From: Candidatus Zixiibacteriota bacterium | Lineage (GTDB): Bacteria; SM23-81 | Direction: 5' to 3' | DNA: 8,521 nucleotides | Assembly: GCA_030628225.1 (NCBI GenBank) | Contig: DAOVRJ010000099.1 | Span: 1 to 8,521 of the forward strand | Shown: piece by piece, positions 1-8,236 of the stretch | Numbering within the stretch: the first letter of the stretch is position 1 | Layout of the letters: every line of letters starts with the position of its first letter | The notes under the pieces: model-generated | The model's input: the letters and a program-made list of their open reading frames with translations, nothing else | Told to the model about the DNA's origin: nothing | Database searches by the model: none | Made by a program: the position numbers and the translations under genes

Positions 1-180
1 CTTGCCCTGTTCCTGGCCGTGTTGGTGGGAGCTGTTGCCGGTATTACTTTGATTGCATTAGGGCTGAAAAAGCGCTGGGAGCACATCCCCTTTGGGCCAT
101 TCATCGCCGCAGGGACCATTTTGGTCGTCTTCTGGGGCGAGGGCATCTCCCGAGCGTATTGGCAGTTGTTTCTCCTATAA
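1..180 (+). CDS. pilD: Prepilin peptidase (PilD/GspO family), C-terminal fragment
   Basis: The 5' end lies outside the window; reading frame 1 is open from base 1 to TAA at 178-180 and gives 59 residues. The product is an inner-membrane aspartic protease that removes the short positively charged leader of type IV prepilins and N-methylates the new first residue. The visible part shows a hydrophobic helix (LALFLAVLVGAVAGITLIAL), then a basic turn (KKRW), then HIPFGPFIAAG and a last hydrophobic helix ending in WQLFLL. The IPFGPF-(I/L)-AAG motif followed by a final membrane helix is the usual end of this family. The catalytic GxGD region lies upstream and cannot be seen. Its position directly before a set of prepilin genes supports the call. 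The stop codon abuts the riboswitch, so transcription of the leader probably starts inside this gene or comes by read-through. No convincing promoter was found here. Confidence 0.88.
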   Translation, partial: LALFLAVLVGAVAGITLIALGLKKRWEHIPFGPFIAAGTILVVFWGEGISRAYWQLFLL

Positions 181-211
181 AGGCAAACCACTCGCGAGAG
201 TGGGACGCAAA

Positions 212-298
212 GCCACGGGTCTTTTGATGTGGCCACGGATCGCCTGTATAAGGCGCCGGGCCAGAGTGAGACGCCCAACCAGAGCCGTCCAGCCACGG
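212..298 (+). repeat. Three copies of GCCACGG in the leader RNA
   Basis: The heptamer GCCACGG occurs at 212-218, 232-238 and 292-298, that is at offsets of 20 and 60 bases. The first copy is the conserved core strand of the aptamer; the other two lie in the insertion. The third copy is part of a nine-base identity (AGCCACGGG). The copies could compete for the same pairing partners or reflect local duplication. Confidence 0.5.
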
Positions 299-319
299 GC
301 TATGGGCTTCGAACTCGAG
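226..319 (+). other. 94-nt structured insertion in the riboswitch's second hairpin
   Basis: This stretch replaces the terminal loop of the ligand-binding hairpin. It is GC-rich and can form several local stems: CGCCT-GTATA-AGGCG (241-255), GGGC (258-261) with GCCC (273-276), CCGT (285-288) with ACGG (295-298), and CTTCG-AACT-CGAGG (307-320). It also repeats pieces of the aptamer: AGAGTGAGACGC at 263-274 resembles AGAGTGGGACGC at 197-208 (one mismatch), and AGCCACGGG at 291-299 is identical to 211-219. It could be an expanded hairpin or the remnant of a second aptamer in tandem. Neither reading is proven. Confidence 0.55.
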
Positions 320-335
320 GAAAGATAGCCGGGCT

Positions 336-360
336 GCAGGAGGCATTGTGATCTACTTGC
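336..360 (+). promoter_or_regulatory. Candidate antiterminator hairpin overlapping aptamer 3' end
   Basis: GCAGGAGG (336-343) can pair with CTACTTGC (353-360): G-C, C-G, A-U, G-U, G-C, an A-A mismatch, G-U, G-C, with loop 344-352. This uses bases 336-337 that also close the aptamer, and the whole 5' arm of the terminator stem. Aptamer closure and this hairpin therefore exclude each other, as do this hairpin and the terminator. If real, ligand binding would favour the terminator (an OFF switch). The pairing is weak and was worked out by eye. Confidence 0.35.
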
Positions 361-882: not shown

Positions 883-1271
883 ACAAGCTATGGATCATGA
901 TCAGGTCGGATAAGAGGGGAATGAGTCTGGTGGAGATCATGGTGGCCATGATCATCCTGGGCATCGCCCTCTCCTGGCTGGCCCCGCTGGTCATCATCGC
1001 CATGCGGGGAACCAGACGGGGCGGCGATCTGACCCAAGCCACGACCCTGGCGCAGGACAAGCTGGAGGAGTTCAGGAGCATGAGCTACGCCTCCATGCTG
1101 GCCAGTCCCACGGGCCAGGATACCCTGCGTGGTGTGGCCAGAAGCTGGGCGGTAACCGAAGAAACAGGCCAACCAGGGCTGGCGCGCATCCTGATCGATC
1201 TGAGCTGGTACGATGATGCCGGCGATGAGCATCAGGTCCAGTTCGTCTCGCTGCGGGCCCGGGCCCAGTGA
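879..1271 (+). CDS. pilV: Minor type IV prepilin, PilV/GspI-like
   Basis: This 130-residue minor prepilin starts at ATG 879, which overlaps the stop of the preceding gene (ATGA). The ribosome binding site is AAGGTGAT at 868-875. The leader MNKLWIMIRSDKRG is cleaved before MSLVEIMVAMIILGIALSWL, with Gly -1 and Glu +5. The short globular part contains TTLAQDKLEEF (about residues 52-62), close to the A..LA..K.E...  pattern usual in PilV/GspI proteins, and it ends in strands around ILIDLSWYDDAGDEHQVQF. It belongs with the other minor pilins and should be processed by the prepilin peptidase upstream. It is short for PilV but typical for loci of this type. A GspI-like label would be equally fair. 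Confidence 0.83.
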   Translation: MNKLWIMIRSDKRGMSLVEIMVAMIILGIALSWLAPLVIIAMRGTRRGGDLTQATTLAQDKLEEFRSMSYASMLASPTGQDTLRGVARSWAVTEETGQPGLARILIDLSWYDDAGDEHQVQFVSLRARAQ

Positions 1272-1302
1272 GGTTGATGGGACGATGGGGGGCAAAAAAA
1301 GG

Positions 1303-2139
1303 ATGGGATTGAAGGACATGAAAAACTCTGCCGGTTTTTCCCTGGTGGAGATGGTGGTGGCCACAGCCATCTTGGGGATCATCATCACCTCCGCCCTTTC
1401 CCTGTATCTCACACAGCAGAAACAGTGGCTGATCCAGGAGCAGGTCGCCGATATGCAGCAGAACGTACGTGTGTCCATGGATGAGCTGACCAGGAACCTG
1501 CGCATGGCCGGCTGTGGGGTTTTACCCGCCGGGCTGCAGCCCATCGAGTTGATGGACGCCGACCCAGACACCCTGATTCTTCGGCAGAACCTCGCTGAGT
1601 GCCACATCACAGTCGGCCTTAATGTTCAATCGAACGTCATACACACACATGACGATCCGACATGCTTTGTGCCGGGTATGAGAACCTTCATCTGGGACGA
1701 TGCCGGCCAGGGGGAGTGGTTCACCGTGGAGGGCGTGTATACCAACGAGGGGAGTGGGTGGGAAGAGGTTCACGCCACCGAAAATTTGGAAAACAACTAT
1801 AACAAAAACGACAATCCTCAGGTGATGGTGATGACCGAGGTCAAATACTACATCGACCAGACCACGGACCAGACCCATCCCACTCTTATGCGTTCCACAA
1901 ACGGTCTGCCGGCCCAGGCTTTTGCCGAGAACATCGAGGATTTCCAGGTTGTCTACCTGATGAAAGACGGGAGTACCACCTCGACGCCCAGTAGCCTGGA
2001 TGATGTGCGGGTCGTTCAGATCGAGTTGTGGGCCAGGACGGCTCGCCAGGACCACGACTGGACAGACGAGGATTATGATGATGGCTATCGTCGCCGGACT
2101 CTGAAGTCCTACGTGGATGTCCGGAACCTGGGGATCTGA
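1303..2139 (+). CDS. pilW: Minor type IV prepilin, PilW-like (copy 1)
   Basis: This 278-residue PilW/GspJ-type minor prepilin has the leader MGLKDMKNSAG, cleaved before FSLVEMVVATAILGIIITSA, with Gly -1 and Glu +5. The helix runs into LSLYLTQQKQWLIQEQ and a long amphipathic segment with MDELTRNLRMAGCG (about residues 59-72), the PilW signature region. Start choice: ATG 1285, 1303 and 1318 are all in frame. I chose 1303 because it gives the same leader length (11) and the same total length (278) as the next gene; the ribosome binding site is poor for all three (GGGGGG at 1287-1292 is the best upstream purine run for 1303). Cysteines 71, 100 and 121 are shared with the second copy and could form a disulfide. 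The gene follows pilV after 31 bases. PilW-like minor pilins act in pilus priming and tip assembly; a specific role here is not shown. Confidence 0.83.
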   Translation: MGLKDMKNSAGFSLVEMVVATAILGIIITSALSLYLTQQKQWLIQEQVADMQQNVRVSMDELTRNLRMAGCGVLPAGLQPIELMDADPDTLILRQNLAECHITVGLNVQSNVIHTHDDPTCFVPGMRTFIWDDAGQGEWFTVEGVYTNEGSGWEEVHATENLENNYNKNDNPQVMVMTEVKYYIDQTTDQTHPTLMRSTNGLPAQAFAENIEDFQVVYLMKDGSTTSTPSSLDDVRVVQIELWARTARQDHDWTDEDYDDGYRRRTLKSYVDVRNLGI

Positions 2140-2179
2140 GGCGAGCTGTCAGATTTAAGGGCGAAATGGAACAAAACGG

Positions 2180-3016
2180 ATGAAAACGAAGATTCTTAAA
2201 AGATCTGCCGGCTTTTCCCTGGTGGAGATGTTGGTGGCCACGGCCATCCTGGGGATCATAGTCAGCTCCGCCCTTTCCCTGTATCTCACACAGCAGAAGC
2301 AGTGGTTGATCCAGGAACAGGTTGCCGAGATGCAACAGAACATCCGCGTGTCCATGGATGAGCTGACCAGGAACCTGCGCATGGCCGGCTGTGGGAATTT
2401 TCCCGCCGGGCTGGATTTTATACTCTCGGATGACACAGACCCGGACAGCCTCACCCTTAGGCAAAGCCTCAGCGATTGTCATGTGACCCTGGGCAAGAGT
2501 ACTCAATCGAACACCATGCACACCCACGACGACGTGGGGTGTTTTCAGACCGGGTTGAGGGCGTTCATCTGGGACGATACCGGCCAGCAGGAGTGGTTCA
2601 CCGTGGACCATGTGGATACTAATGAAGGGGAGGGGTGGTACGAGATTCATTCCGAATCCAATTTGACCAACGTATATGACACAGATGACGATCCCCAGGT
2701 GATGGTTATGTCCGAGGCCACATACTACGTTGACCAGATCACGGACCAGGGCCACCCCGTTCTGATGCGCTCCACAAATGGCCTGCCGGCTCAAGCCTTC
2801 GCCGAGGACATCGAGGATTTCCAGGTGGTCTACCTGATGAAAGACGGGAGCACCACCTCGGCACCGGCCAGCTTGGGGGATGTACGGGTCGTTCGGATCG
2901 AATTGCGGGCCAGGACGAGGCGCCAGGACCAGGAGTGGACCGACGATGACTTTGAGGATGGCTATCGTCGCCGGACCCTTACCTCCTGGATCGATGTCCG
3001 CAACATGGGCATTTGA
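2180..3016 (+). CDS. pilW: Minor type IV prepilin, PilW-like (copy 2, tandem paralogue)
   Basis: This 278-residue protein aligns without gaps to the preceding gene product; by hand count about 202 of 278 residues match (73%). The leader MKTKILKRSAG is cleaved before FSLVEMLVATAILGIIVSSA, with Gly -1 and Glu +5. Divergence is uneven: about 90% identity over residues 9-76 (leader end, helix and its continuation), about 59% over 77-180, about 83% over 181-240. Cys 71, 100 and 121 are kept. The start ATG 2180 has a weak ribosome binding site (ATGGA at 2167-2170 or AAGG at 2157-2160), and the 40-base gap to copy 1 shows nothing else. This looks like a duplication in which the shaft-forming part is conserved and the exposed globular face has diverged. 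Both copies look intact. Confidence 0.83.
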   Translation: MKTKILKRSAGFSLVEMLVATAILGIIVSSALSLYLTQQKQWLIQEQVAEMQQNIRVSMDELTRNLRMAGCGNFPAGLDFILSDDTDPDSLTLRQSLSDCHVTLGKSTQSNTMHTHDDVGCFQTGLRAFIWDDTGQQEWFTVDHVDTNEGEGWYEIHSESNLTNVYDTDDDPQVMVMSEATYYVDQITDQGHPVLMRSTNGLPAQAFAEDIEDFQVVYLMKDGSTTSAPASLGDVRVVRIELRARTRRQDQEWTDDDFEDGYRRRTLTSWIDVRNMGI

Positions 3017-3031
3017 GAGAAACTCCATCTA

Positions 3032-3048
3032 AGAATCGAGGTGATTCT
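3032..3048 (+). promoter_or_regulatory. Small hairpin displaying the pilX ribosome binding site
   Basis: AGAATC (3032-3037) and GATTCT (3043-3048) form a perfect 6-bp inverted repeat whose five-base loop is GAGGT, the ribosome binding site of the ATG at 3050. The stem is A/T-rich and weak. It may keep the site exposed or tune initiation; it could also be chance. Confidence 0.35.
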
Positions 3049-3049
3049 C

Positions 3050-4705
3050 ATGAAACGCCGAACGCTCCTATTCGTGATCTCGCCCATGAGAAACCAGAGA
3101 GGAGTCGCCCTGCTCGTTGTGCTGGCCATCGTCCTCATGTTGACTGTTGTGGGAACGGTGGCAGTAATTACCTCCAAGACAGAGATGGATATCAGCGGGG
3201 TGGAACGGACGGAGACTATGGCTTTTTATGCTGCGGAGGCCGGGGTGGAGAAGGCCCTTGCCGTCATCCTGGTCAGCTACGAGACCTATGGGATACCGCC
3301 TGACCCTCTGCCCGCCGGACAGATGGATTTAAACGGGTACACTGTGACCTATAGCACCGTCGACAACGGGCCGGCGAATTTCGAAATGCTCACCCATGGT
3401 GCCTACAAGGGGCTGTATGCTCTGTTGAAGTCCTTCACCGTCGAGGCCCAGGCCACCGGTGGGTCTTACAATGCTCTGGCTCAGGTTTCCCAGATAGTGG
3501 AAGACGCCCTGATTCCGGTGTTTCAGTTCGCCGTCTTCTATGAGGAAGATCTGGAGATCGCCCCCGGCCCGGCCATGACCCTGGCCGGACGGGTACACAC
3601 CAATGCTGATATGTACCTGCAGTCCAACATCAACCTGAAAATCGATTCTTACACCACAGCCGCCGGCAACATCTATCACGGCAGGCATCCCGACTCGGGC
3701 AAGAGCGATAGCTACGGCGATGTGCTGATCAAGGACGCTGCTGGAGTGTACCAGAATATGAAGAATGGAGATGGAACCTGGCTGGATTCCCAGGACGATA
3801 GTTGGGTGTTTTCTTCCATTCAGCGCTGGGATGGTTTGGTCGAGGATAGTTATCACGGTATTACGGAGCTCTATCTGCCGGTGGTCAGTGAGGGGGAGTC
3901 CATAGAGCTCATAAAACGGGGGAGCGATAACCCGGATAGCTTTGAGCATAAGGCCGATTTGAAATTAGTGGATGGTGCCGTCTATTTCAGGAACGAGCAG
4001 GCAGAATGGGTGGATGTGACCCAGCCAATGGAGGATGATGAGATTCTCACCTATGCTTCCTTCTACAATTATCGTGAGGGCAAGTGGATATCATCCTACG
4101 ATATCGACATTTCCAAGCTGAACACCAGTAACTATTTCCCAGACAACGGGATCATCTACGCCGCCCATACCGATAAGATTCACGGGGCCATCCGCCTGGT
4201 AGAGGGATCCGAGCTGGGCGGGCCCCTGACAGTGGCCACGGAAAATCCGCTCTACACCCTGGGAGACTACAACAGCGTTGACAAACAGCCTGCAGCGCTG
4301 CTCACCGATACCTATAACGTCCTTTCCAACAACTGGAGCGATGCCATGAGCACCAGTTCCCTGAACTCGAGGACGGCCAGCAATACCACCGTCAACGCCT
4401 GTTTTATGACCGGTCTGGTGCCCAGTCAGAGCAGCCATTACAGCGGTGGTCTGGAGAATCTGCCCCGCTTTTTGGAGAAGTGGACCAGCAAGACCTTCTG
4501 CTATCGTGGTTCGATGGTGGATACCTGGGAAAGTGAAGTTGCCACCGGCACGTGGTATTATGGAGGTCTATATTATACAGCCCCTAACCGTGACTGGGCT
4601 TTCGATCCCATGTACCTGGATCCCACAAAGCTGCCTCCGGGAACGCCCCAGGTCAACGCGGTACAACGGGGCCGCTGGATGAACCAGCTGGCTTCCTCGG
4701 AATAA
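3050..4705 (+). CDS. pilX: Large PilX-like type IV pilus assembly protein
   Basis: A 551-residue protein with a PilX-type N-terminus: basic leader ending RNQRG, then VALLVVLAIVLMLTVVGTVAV (about residues 19-39) and a continuing helix through TSKTEMDISGVERTETMAFY and AAEAGVEKAL. Unlike the other minor pilins, position +5 is not Glu, as is usual for PilX and GspK proteins, which cap the pilus tip complex. The C-terminal part is far larger than classical PilX (roughly 200 aa in Pseudomonas). It holds TLAGRVHTNADMYL (about residues 177-190) and, near the end, APNRDWAFDP and LPPGTP, a pattern I recognise from long PilX_N proteins of pilus-rich anaerobes. Start: ATG 3050 with GAGGT at 3038-3042; GTG 3041 overlaps that site, and ATG 3086 would give a shorter classical leader (MRNQRG) but lacks a binding site. 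It is the last gene of the minor-pilin operon. The role of the big domain is unknown; an adhesin-like tip function is only a guess. Confidence 0.75.
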   Translation: MKRRTLLFVISPMRNQRGVALLVVLAIVLMLTVVGTVAVITSKTEMDISGVERTETMAFYAAEAGVEKALAVILVSYETYGIPPDPLPAGQMDLNGYTVTYSTVDNGPANFEMLTHGAYKGLYALLKSFTVEAQATGGSYNALAQVSQIVEDALIPVFQFAVFYEEDLEIAPGPAMTLAGRVHTNADMYLQSNINLKIDSYTTAAGNIYHGRHPDSGKSDSYGDVLIKDAAGVYQNMKNGDGTWLDSQDDSWVFSSIQRWDGLVEDSYHGITELYLPVVSEGESIELIKRGSDNPDSFEHKADLKLVDGAVYFRNEQAEWVDVTQPMEDDEILTYASFYNYREGKWISSYDIDISKLNTSNYFPDNGIIYAAHTDKIHGAIRLVEGSELGGPLTVATENPLYTLGDYNSVDKQPAALLTDTYNVLSNNWSDAMSTSSLNSRTASNTTVNACFMTGLVPSQSSHYSGGLENLPRFLEKWTSKTFCYRGSMVDTWESEVATGTWYYGGLYYTAPNRDWAFDPMYLDPTKLPPGTPQVNAVQRGRWMNQLASSE

Positions 4706-4759
4706 GGCGGCTGGTGATGGATGAGATGTGCTGGCCGTTAAAAATCATTTCGATTTCCC

Positions 4760-4789
4760 TTGACAAAAGGCATTCTGTGGGTACATTAT
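4760..4789 (+). promoter_or_regulatory. Sigma70-type promoter for pilMNOPQ
   Basis: A perfect -35 box TTGACA lies at 4760-4765. A -10 candidate is TACATT (4782-4787, 16-nt spacer) or CATTAT (4784-4789, 18-nt spacer), each matching four of six consensus bases. Transcription would start near 4795, about 40 bases before the pilM start. The promoter lies in the only sizeable gap (129 bases) of the two pilus operons. Confidence 0.65.
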
Positions 4790-4799
4790 GTTCTCACCC

Positions 4800-4817
4800 G
4801 AGAGGTCACGGCCTCTC
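4800..4817 (+). promoter_or_regulatory. Leader hairpin upstream of pilM
   Basis: GAGAGG (4800-4805) pairs with CCTCTC (4812-4817) around a six-base loop. It would lie at the extreme 5' end of the mRNA from the promoter at 4760 and ends five bases before the AAAGGAG ribosome binding site. It may stabilise the transcript, or it could be an operator. No T-run follows, so it is not a terminator. Confidence 0.45.
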
Positions 4818-4834
4818 CTGCAAAGGAGATGAAC

Positions 4835-5881
4835 GTGTTTAAGCGGAAGATAAAGACCTCCGTGGGGCTGGATATCGGTAACTTTTCCAGCAAATTAGTG
4901 CAGTTGGAGTTCTTTCCTCATGGTCAAAGGCTGCTCTCTTACGGCATTCACCAATTTCCCCTGAACACGATTGTCGGCGGCCAGATTAAGAACAAAGAGG
5001 CGGTGATTGCCGGCATCAAGCACTTAATTCAGCGATGTGATCCGCACATTAAAGAGGTTGTGATCTCCGTCTCCGGACGCGGAGTGATCACCGATAAACT
5101 CACTCTACAACGGCGCAAAGGCGTCAAGACCAGCCAATTGGTGCGTTTTGAGGCCGAGCAGCGTTGTCCCTTTGATGTGGATGACGTGACCTTAGATTAT
5201 AAGGTTGTTAAAGTGGATGAGAAGTCGGATTGTATGGATGTCGTCCTGGTGGCCGCCAAGAACGAGACTCTTTATGACCAGTTGGCAGTGGTCTACGAGG
5301 CCGATCTCAAGCCGGTAGTAGTGGATGTGGACGCTTTTGCCCTCTACAACACCTGGGAGACCAATTATCCGCCGGATGAGCAGCTGAATACGGTCCTGGT
5401 CAACATCGGCGCTGAGGTGACCAATGTGGTGTTCGTTCACCAGGGCACCTATCACTCCACCCGAGATCTGTCCGTGGCCGGCAACAGCTTTGTGAAAACA
5501 GTGCAAAGGCAAATGGGTGTTGCTGCGGAGCTGGTTCATCAGGCCCTCCAGGGAAAGATGGACCCCAAGCTGGATCACAGCACCTTCATGTTTGCCGTGA
5601 ACAAAAGCAGCGAGATGTTGTCCAAAGAGCTGGATCTGGCCTTCTCCTATTTTAAGTCAGAGGCCAAAGTGGATAAGATCGATCGCATCTTGCTCAGCGG
5701 GGGCTGCTCCCTGATTCCCTGGCTCCCGGGTTTCTTGGAGAAACGGCACCACATTTCCGTAGAGAAGCTGGATCCCCTGAAAGTCATCGAATGTTCAGAT
5801 CAGCTTCAACAAAATGGCCTCAATGAGTTGGCTCCGGTCTTGGCGGTGCCAATTGGCCTAGCCCTGAGACAGGCAAACTGA
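4835..5881 (+). CDS. pilM: Type IV pilus assembly protein PilM, actin-like
   Basis: PilM is a cytoplasmic protein with the actin/FtsA fold that binds nucleotide and the N-terminal tail of PilN, forming the inner ring of the pilus machine. Visible motifs: SVGLDIGNFSSKLVQLE near the N-terminus (phosphate 1; G-L-D-I-G at residues 11-15), TVLVNIGAEVTNVVF (about 184-198, phosphate 2) and ILLSGGCSLIPWL (about 285-297, adenosine loop). At 348 residues it has the usual PilM length. Start: I prefer GTG 4835, because AAAGGAG (4822-4828) is directly adjacent to ATG 4829 with no spacing but six bases from GTG 4835, and the resulting start (MFKRKIK-SVGLDIG) matches other PilM proteins. An open frame reaches up to TTG 4760, but that lies in the promoter. 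pilN starts three bases after the stop, so translation is probably coupled. Confidence 0.93.
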   Translation: MFKRKIKTSVGLDIGNFSSKLVQLEFFPHGQRLLSYGIHQFPLNTIVGGQIKNKEAVIAGIKHLIQRCDPHIKEVVISVSGRGVITDKLTLQRRKGVKTSQLVRFEAEQRCPFDVDDVTLDYKVVKVDEKSDCMDVVLVAAKNETLYDQLAVVYEADLKPVVVDVDAFALYNTWETNYPPDEQLNTVLVNIGAEVTNVVFVHQGTYHSTRDLSVAGNSFVKTVQRQMGVAAELVHQALQGKMDPKLDHSTFMFAVNKSSEMLSKELDLAFSYFKSEAKVDKIDRILLSGGCSLIPWLPGFLEKRHHISVEKLDPLKVIECSDQLQQNGLNELAPVLAVPIGLALRQAN

Positions 5882-5884
5882 AAT

Positions 5885-6526
5885 ATGATCAGGATCAACC
5901 TGCTTCCAGAGGAATTCCAAGCCAGGAAGAGGAAGCTCCGTATTTCCCCGCATTGGGGTTTTGTGGTAGCCGCGGTGGTGGGGTTTTTATTGCTCCTCTC
6001 TCTGTTGACCCTGTGGCAGAGATCGCACCTTAATCGGCTGGAGATGGAAATTCGCCAGACGCGGGTGGAGGCTGAACGGCAAAAGGCCGACCTGAAGCTG
6101 GTTCGGGAATTAACCGCCCTCAAGGAAAAGATCCTCCAGCGCATGCAGGTAGTAGAGCAACTGAATCAGAATCGCACGCGCTGGATCGAGATTCTTACGG
6201 CCCTCAGCCAGTCTGTGCCCGAGGATATGTGGCTGGTCACCTTCAAGGAGAAAGGAACAGGCACGGCAGCTCAGGCTCAGATTCAGGGCATGTGCTTTTC
6301 TCTGAAGCCCATCGCCCTTTTTATGGACAGGATGGAGGAAACGGAGTGGTTTTCGCGTCCTCGATTTGCTTTCGCGCGCAGGGTTGCCGTTCCCGATGGG
6401 ATGGCCTACGATTTTGAGGTGGTGGCCGATCTGTTTAGCTATGAGAAAATATTTTTTGCTCACGAGATCTCTGCGGAACAGAAAGATCTGAAGGAAGAGA
6501 AAAACAGCAGGAAAGGGAAGGGGTAA
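5885..6526 (+). CDS. pilN: Type IV pilus inner-membrane alignment protein PilN
   Basis: This 213-residue bitopic membrane protein begins with MIRINLLPEE, the conserved cytoplasmic tail that docks into PilM. One membrane helix follows (WGFVVAAVVGFLLLLSLL, about residues 24-41), then a coiled coil (about 45-95, rich in E/K/Q/R heptads), then a periplasmic domain of the PilN type (TRWIEILTALSQSVPEDMWL onward) that pairs with PilO. The C-terminus is unusually charged (EQKDLKEEKNSRKGKG), a hydrophilic tail of about 20 residues beyond the expected domain end. It begins three bases after pilM with only a weak ribosome binding site, which suggests coupling to pilM translation. Confidence 0.93.
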   Translation: MIRINLLPEEFQARKRKLRISPHWGFVVAAVVGFLLLLSLLTLWQRSHLNRLEMEIRQTRVEAERQKADLKLVRELTALKEKILQRMQVVEQLNQNRTRWIEILTALSQSVPEDMWLVTFKEKGTGTAAQAQIQGMCFSLKPIALFMDRMEETEWFSRPRFAFARRVAVPDGMAYDFEVVADLFSYEKIFFAHEISAEQKDLKEEKNSRKGKG

Positions 6527-6581
6527 AAAGGGTGATGCAGTTCATGGTGATAACCGGTTGCTGAGGTCTATACTATCCGCT

Positions 6582-7184
6582 ATGAATCAAAAGAACACGA
6601 AAAATCTGGTCATCATTTCTTTGGTTCTGCTGGTTCTTGCCGGCACCTACCTCTGGTATGTCTCTCTGTATCGGCCTCTTCTGGATCAGGTGCAGAAAAA
6701 ATCCGCTGAGCACCGGCAGTTGTTGACCAGTTTGGAGACGGCCAAGCGGCAAGCGGCGAAACGCGTTTCTCTGCAGCAGGAGTACGACGATCTTCAAAAG
6801 CAGTGGCAGGTGGTGGAGACCTTGCTGCCAAAGGAGCGGAACATGTCCGATTTCATCAAGCAGCTCCACAGGATCAAGGGAAAGGTTGATGCCACTATTG
6901 AGCGAGTCTCTCCTCTGAAGTCTAGATCGGTGGATTTCTACATGGAAAACGCTTATGAGATTGAGATGCTGACCACCTACCATGGTCTGGGAGGTTTTCT
7001 CAGCCATGTGGCCAATCTGCCCATCATCGTGGACGTCACTTCTCTCGATATGACTGGGCTTCCCCGGCATGAGGAGGAGGAAGAGGAGAGAGACATAGTG
7101 GGGCCCAGCGTCCGCAGTCGACTGGTGCTGACCACCTATAGTCTTAGGGAAAACGTGGATTTGGAGGAGAAAAGCGGCCAGTGA
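6582..7184 (+). CDS. pilO: Type IV pilus inner-membrane alignment protein PilO
   Basis: A 200-residue partner of PilN: short cytoplasmic tail, membrane helix (NLVIISLVLLVLAGTYLWYV, about residues 8-27), coiled coil (about 30-80), then LLPKERNMSDFIKQLHRIKG and a ferredoxin-like periplasmic domain with YEIEMLTTYHGLGGFLSHVA and LPIIVDVTSLDM, all typical of PilO. An acidic loop (HEEEEEERD, about residues 164-172) interrupts the last strands. Start: ATG 6582 gives a normal PilO N-terminus but its nearest binding site (GAGGT, 6563-6567) is 14 bases away. TTG 6558 would add eight residues and has GGTGAT at 6546-6551 with six-base spacing, so it is a real alternative. The stop overlaps the pilP start by four bases (GTGA). 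Confidence 0.9.
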   Translation: MNQKNTKNLVIISLVLLVLAGTYLWYVSLYRPLLDQVQKKSAEHRQLLTSLETAKRQAAKRVSLQQEYDDLQKQWQVVETLLPKERNMSDFIKQLHRIKGKVDATIERVSPLKSRSVDFYMENAYEIEMLTTYHGLGGFLSHVANLPIIVDVTSLDMTGLPRHEEEEEERDIVGPSVRSRLVLTTYSLRENVDLEEKSGQ

Positions 7185-8236
7185 ACGGTATTTTCAAGCA
7201 GTCTTTTTTCAACAAATTGCTCTTTTCTCTTTTTTCAGGAGCTGTCCTTCTGTTTTTGACCGCTCCCGCGGATGCCGCCTATCGGGTGACCGATCTGCAG
7301 GTGTCCCAGACAGAGAAAGGGGTGACCGTCACCGTGATGGCTGATGCACCGGTGAGCTATAGCTATTTTACCATGGGAGAGCCGGAGCCTCGTCTGGTAG
7401 TGGATTTTTCTGACGCGATACATGGTCTTCCCAAATATCATTTCAGAAATCTGCACACCCACCTGATCAGCGAGATCCGGACCAGCCAGTATCGTCCCTT
7501 TCCCCATCCCATGGTGCGGGTAGTTTTGGATATGTCCAAGCTGTTGCCTTTTATGATCATCAAAGAAGAGAACCGCCTGGTTATTATGCTTGAGGCCACT
7601 TCAAAAGAGGAGTTTGCGGCGCAGGATCCTCTTCAACAGGAATCTCTCCAGATGTCACCGGAGACGAAAGATGAAGCTGTGCAGGATGCCCAGATTTCCG
7701 TTGAGGAGTATGGCCCATTCCAGGTACAGGCTCAGGCTCCTATGGAGCAGCAGCCTCGGCCGGAGGAGAGTGCTCTGGCTCCGGCCAGAGATGAGCATGA
7801 GACTGAAAATGAGCAGGAATCCGCACTGACTTCGACCAGCCCCGAGGATACGATACAGTCCGGGGAGGAGTTCGCCGGGCTTGACCAGCAGAAGGAGACA
7901 ACTGTCTCCCGGTTCTTTGCCCTGGGAATCAGGGAGCCCGTGTCTTATAGCAGCGGAGGAAAGAGGGATCCCTTTGTGTCCCTCCCTATGGGCCAGGAGG
8001 TGGAGTTCGGTCAGGCCCCGTTGCCGGATGTTGAGAAGTTGACCATCGTGGGCATTCTTCTCGACTTAGATGGTTACAGAGCTCTGGCCCAGGACGAAGA
8101 CAAAAATGCGTATGTGCTCAGGAAAGGGGACCGGGTGCTCTATGGCTATGTGGTCCGGGTCGAGGAAGAAAGGGTGGTGTTTCGCCTGAATAGGAGGGGA
8201 CTCGATAAAACGATTATCATAAAACTTCCCCAGTGA
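7181..8236 (+). CDS. pilP: PilP-type pilus protein with an added N-terminal AMIN domain
   Basis: 351 residues, about twice the size of ordinary PilP. Order: signal peptide (KLLFSLFSGAVLLFLTAPADA, cleavage about residue 32); an AMIN-type domain (about 33-140) with EPRLVVDF, ISEIRTSQYRPFPHPMVRVV and NRLVIMLEA; a Glu/Gln/Pro-rich flexible linker (about 141-250); and a C-terminal PilP domain (about 258-351) starting at KRDPF (261-265) and including LTIVGILLDLDGYRALAQDED, VLRKGDRVLYGYVVRVEEERVVF. PilP links PilN/PilO to the N domains of the PilQ secretin in the periplasm. AMIN domains bind peptidoglycan and normally sit at the N-terminus of PilQ. There is no lipobox cysteine at the signal-peptide end, unlike classical lipoprotein PilP. 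The start is GTG 7181, overlapping the pilO stop, with GGAGGAG at 7162-7168 (12-base spacing). Confidence 0.87.
   Translation: MNGIFKQSFFNKLLFSLFSGAVLLFLTAPADAAYRVTDLQVSQTEKGVTVTVMADAPVSYSYFTMGEPEPRLVVDFSDAIHGLPKYHFRNLHTHLISEIRTSQYRPFPHPMVRVVLDMSKLLPFMIIKEENRLVIMLEATSKEEFAAQDPLQQESLQMSPETKDEAVQDAQISVEEYGPFQVQAQAPMEQQPRPEESALAPARDEHETENEQESALTSTSPEDTIQSGEEFAGLDQQKETTVSRFFALGIREPVSYSSGGKRDPFVSLPMGQEVEFGQAPLPDVEKLTIVGILLDLDGYRALAQDEDKNAYVLRKGDRVLYGYVVRVEEERVVFRLNRRGLDKTIIIKLPQ

Follow-up and report, generated by a model that had tools for sequence, protein, structure and literature searches.

A c-di-GMP-I riboswitch with a long, aptamer-like P3 insert upstream of a type IV pilus operon

Introduction

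Riboswitches of the cGAMP (GEMM-Ib) type carry an A at position 20. For the c-di-GMP-I class, tandem arrangements outnumber those of every other riboswitch class in one survey, which counted 347 doublets (PMC9481103). Within the family, Cd1 is an OFF switch, its terminator being formed in the bound state (PMC9262584). Here we describe a c-di-GMP-I leader in a stretch of 8,521 nucleotides from a Candidatus Zixiibacteriota bacterium (hereafter the window), which makes up contig C84 in a draft genome of 2.34 Mb. All features given for the window lie on its plus strand. The comparison set within the phylum consisted of three other genomes, the nearest being G001, of the same family; none is of the same genus.

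Results

A scan with the Rfam library (cmscan) gave RF03167 (c-di-GMP-I-GGC) as the top covariance score, at 173-342. This match reached 63.5 bits (gathering cut-off 59), with an E-value of 1.6e-13 over the whole library and 80 of the 80 model positions aligned. About 96 surplus bases are placed by this alignment in the loop of P3. The best match of RF01051 covers 172-266 with 42.7 bits (cut-off 35) and stops at an inner 3'-like strand described below. Both models thus score above gathering, which places the element in clan CL00126. A preliminary description made from the sequence had proposed a c-di-GMP-I (GEMM-I) aptamer at 177-343 and a covariance run as its check; the score is far above background, and the P1/P2/P3 plan and the ligand pocket are present.

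From the Rfam alignment and folding, this plan is complete, with a GNRA loop on P2 and the receptor strands in P3. P1 is made of six pairs between UCUCCU (171-176) and AGGAGG (338-343). The pocket strand GGC (182-184) is followed by the P2 hairpin (188-203), whose stem 188-193/198-203 carries a GCGA tetraloop at 194-197 and has pairing probabilities of 0.97-0.999; G183-C208 and C184-G207 are the closing pairs. The outer, functional copy of P3 joins AGCCACGGGUCUUUU (211-225) to a 3' strand at 320-335 through the pairs 211-214/332-335 and 216-218/329-331 and an inner part, GUCUUUU (219-225) with GAAAGAU (320-326), leaving the usual AG bulge at 327-328. The three pocket bases are all found in the alignment as G182, A209 and C337, which we take to be G20, A47 and the ligand-contacting cytosine C92 of Vc2 numbering. 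The variant trait of RF03167, as read from its consensus and name, is a G at the A47 position, where the window has A209. The element scores best with RF03167 while missing the base for which the variant seems to be named. With G182 at position 20, it is also distinct from the cGAMP riboswitches. We conclude that it truly belongs to the c-di-GMP-I class, with an architecture that is unusual. It looks functional, ligand binding and control of expression being predicted.

The aptamer is followed by an intrinsic terminator (350-383), a perfect 11-bp stem at 350-376 and then a T run (z -5.87), in line with the termination decision that had been supposed for this leader. Next come a Shine-Dalgarno-like GAGGAG (384-389), an ATG start at 397 and a first gene (397-882) for a GspH/FimT-like minor pilin (PF07963, PF12019). 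Pfam matches and open reading frames assign the remaining operon (888-8236) to pilins, a PilW-like pair, PilX, PilM, PilN, PilO and an AMIN-domain (PilP-like) protein, so that the riboswitch leader sits upstream of a minor-pilin/pilMNOP operon for type IV pili. The PilW-like prepilin genes, at 1318-2139 and 2180-3016, are in tandem and very similar, probably by gene duplication. In the minimum-energy fold of 166-400, the P1 5' strand could alternatively pair with GAGGAG (384-389) in read-through transcripts. No Pfam family was found in 1-177; the open reading frame ending there reads as the prepilin peptidase PilD from its alignment with a peptidase-like frame of G001. When the genome contigs were scanned with the first pilin, only distant Myxococcales pilins matched. 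Rfam models run over the source genome showed this to be its sole c-di-GMP-I riboswitch above cut-off. Seven GGDEF domains were matched in the same genome, and c-di-GMP can therefore be made in this organism.

The inner part of P3, the second hairpin of the aptamer, closes around 94 bases (226-319), as the preliminary description had it, and the local stems that it saw there are confirmed. They form two hairpins, at 230-263 and 264-316, and the insert as a whole is strongly structured (-43.1 kcal/mol, z -3.48, none of 200 shuffles being as stable). Such a compact two-hairpin fold would suit an additional sensor or a site for a protein, as had been suggested. However, the Rfam scan found no other family above cut-off within the insert, and its sequence resembles a degraded aptamer, so that this suggestion is not supported and we regard it as very improbable.

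The resemblance is collinear. The region 239-299, reading TCGCCTGTATAAGG..CCAGAGTGAGACG..AGCCACGGG, resembles the aptamer 5' half (171-219), and under six gap scorings 0, 0, 2, 24, 24 and 65 of 5000 dinucleotide shuffles did equally well or better; the signal is modest under the stricter scoring (65/5000). None of 399 other window segments reached this resemblance. AGCCACGGG by itself recurs in 9 of 5000 shuffles. GCCACGG, the core of P3, is present three times (212, 231 and 292), and two copies within the insert were obtained in none of 5000 shuffles. An inner P3 5'-strand copy, CAGCCACGGGCUAU, lies at 290-303 and can make 12 pairs with 325-336. An inner 3'-half-like strand, GGCGCCGGGCC, lies at 252-262 and lacks the two bases that include the C92 equivalent. 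When the outer 3' half was cut off, the match fell from 63.5 to 44.6 bits, on 252-262, and the C92 position was lost; the outer 3' half is therefore the real partner. An aptamer that uses the inner strand for closure (172-266) was rejected, since it scores about 19 bits lower and misses that position. By sequence only the inner halves are degraded, the outer ones being intact, and the best reading of the insert is a collapsed tandem or an internal duplication of the aptamer. The exact history, for instance a clean tandem, is irrecoverable because the 5'-like segment 239-252 and the 3'-like segment 252-262 abut or overlap. As no relative keeps the leader intact, this history is read from internal similarity in one sequence, taken from a draft genome whose reads were not seen and in which a local assembly error is possible in such a repeat-like stretch.

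Could the insert be a plain variable P3 tip, its likeness to the aptamer being a coincidence of G+C-rich sequence? Across 193 genomes, the span of c-di-GMP-I hits has a median of 83 nt (n=117 hits); it is at least 100 nt in 12 of the 117 hits and at least 120 nt in 9, the window's 170 nt being the longest. No span above 93 nt was seen in one phylum with more than 100 hits. Long P3 tips are a minority among hits but recurrent. The earlier statement that this tip varies only modestly thus holds for the typical span of about 83 nt and fails for the 9 hits of 120 nt or more. Long P3 tips without detectable duplication occur in G186, G061 and G090, and in G001 the P3 of the leader of an HD-domain-like gene is a long extended stem; these cases, like the unexceptional energy of the decoy hairpin treated below, are what a variable tip would predict. 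The collinear copy (0-65/5000 shuffles) and the two further GCCACGG copies (0/5000) are not, and we give this explanation a low, though appreciable, probability. The G001 element just mentioned lies at L043:4138-4285 (minus strand); the gene downstream of it, HD-domain-like as read from its sequence, possibly encodes a c-di-GMP phosphodiesterase. In another locus, L047:2447-2599, the P3 insert carries two hairpins, and GATTACAGTG occurs in it as a direct repeat.

In terms of secondary structure only, ligand and tertiary contacts being left out, the aptamer fold (P1 and outer P3) has -75.0 kcal/mol and the free minimum -75.8 kcal/mol, a gap of 0.8 kcal/mol. In this minimum, 325-336 is taken up locally by the inner strand 290-303, with which it forms a hairpin. 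Two complete aptamers in tandem were not found: 226-400 alone scores 14.9 bits, and a two-aptamer (two-P3) fold reaches only -65.2 kcal/mol, about 10 kcal/mol worse. It may be asked whether the insert is rather a selected strand-exchange switch, its inner P3 strand 290-303 capturing the 3' half when ligand is absent. The alternative hairpin has 12 bp (-22.7 kcal/mol, z -2.97), the fold that contains it differs little in energy from the aptamer fold, and ligand-free pairing probabilities are 0.49-0.56 for the inner strand versus 0.14-0.003 for the aptamer P3. However, this decoy covers only part of the antiterminator, and on pairing energy alone it is insignificant: 316 of 2000 shuffles of the G+C-rich insert pair as well, so its energy is no sign of selection. 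Selection for strand exchange is thus rather unlikely in our opinion. Apart from selection, the inner strand may act as a decoy for the common 3' half. Since it competes for the P3 3' strand, folding may be slowed by the insert, as had been imagined earlier, or competed.

A candidate antiterminator (330-365; -12.2 kcal/mol, z only -1.67) overlaps the 3' strands of P3 and P1 and the 5' arm of the terminator. If it is real, ligand binding frees the terminator and the riboswitch is an OFF switch. This direction, the same as in Cd1 (PMC9262584), is predicted with moderate confidence.

The orthologous peptidase-pilin junction of G001 has no Rfam match in its leader. The aptamer is therefore not conserved at this locus, though intact in the window. 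It had been stated beforehand that absence of the aptamer here in related genomes would speak against it; the G001 leader does so, and the intact aptamer of the window itself speaks for it. This leader is similar to the whole window leader (1-3 of 2000 shuffles) and weakly similar to 262-345 (26-38 of 2000); because the similarity is weak within 262-345, a decayed riboswitch in G001 is a suggestion only. A riboswitch in decay, lost at this locus in the sister genus and with the insert as early erosion, would explain a G001 leader that lacks an Rfam match yet resembles that of the window, and also a ligand-free ensemble that disfavours the aptamer P3. Against this, the window retains P1, P2, the terminator and all of the pocket bases intact, and decay seems improbable to us.

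Duplicated 3' halves were found in other lineages. In G119, G287 and G288, which belong to one genus, and likewise in G075, G480 and G481, a single 5' half has two 3' halves downstream, one near and one far; the leaders of G480 and G481 are identical. The two copies in G484 are arranged alike, with a similarity that is insignificant (261/2000). Loci trimmed before the far copy retain 47.7-75.7 bits. In all six leaders that were folded (G481, G484, G075, G119, G288, G287) the far 3' copy provides the terminator's 5' arm. Leaders of this kind, with one 5' half and two alternative 3' halves of which the far one also serves as that arm, are located at L050:2823-2963, L090:1501-1642, L092:1501-1642 (minus), L111:308-455 (minus), L112:608-755, L113:874-1020 (minus) and L052:1404-1525. 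This arrangement suggests that leaders of the G119 and G075 type have mutually exclusive aptamer folds, and the similarities support the view that duplication gives rise to long P3 hits. In L122, L123 and L126 the near 3' half (..GCGUAUCGAU..) apparently has a U at the C92 position and the far copy a C; the UAU variant model (RF03168) matches best in two of these three.

Discussion

The explanation that we favour, and consider fairly probable, is that a c-di-GMP-I riboswitch controls the pilus operon and that its 94-nt insert is what remains of the inner halves of a tandem or internally duplicated aptamer. Independent precedent comes from the lineages of G119 and G075, in which half-aptamers are duplicated, and from the abundance of tandem c-di-GMP-I arrangements. 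The two halves that close the aptamer, 171-225 and 320-343, lie far apart, and the decayed inner halves would fold into two compact hairpins that hold the P3 strands together. Binding of c-di-GMP would pin 324-343 in the aptamer, the antiterminator 330-365 would be blocked and the terminator 350-376 would halt transcription. Without ligand, the 3' half would be captured either by the antiterminator or by the decoy strand 290-303, and the decoy would tune the threshold or the timing of the response.

More tentatively, half-aptamer duplication could be a recurrent route in c-di-GMP-I evolution, a common half with two partner halves giving mutually exclusive folds that serve as the switch. The window would be the case of a duplicated 5' half, and the G119 and G075 lineages would be cases of a duplicated 3' half with the outer copy as terminator arm. 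We found no matching description of half-aptamer duplication in the open-access literature. If duplicated half-aptamers commonly make long P3 tips, the "expanded P3" of some covariance matches is a misreading, the model having skipped a valid 3' half that lies nearer. Such a process would also offer a concrete path by which tandem sensors become one switch whose strands compete, and the G119 and G075 cases constitute conserved natural examples of duplicated halves.

Compared with RF01051 (GEMM-I), the window has in common P1, P2 and P3, the GNRA loop, the G20/A47/C92 pocket, the downstream terminator and the pilus genes, and differs by the 94-nt P3 insert. With RF03167 it shares the top above-cut-off score; it differs by A209 and an ordinary G/A/C pocket. 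As in tandem c-di-GMP-I riboswitches (PMC9481103), two sets of aptamer-like halves are present in one leader. However, the window has one complete aptamer and one terminator, and its inner halves are degraded. Finally, Cd1 (PMC9262584) resembles the window in pairing the bound state with a terminator and the free state with an antiterminator, a direction that is only predicted for the window; Cd1 differs in that a P1 helix, present in the window, was not detected there.
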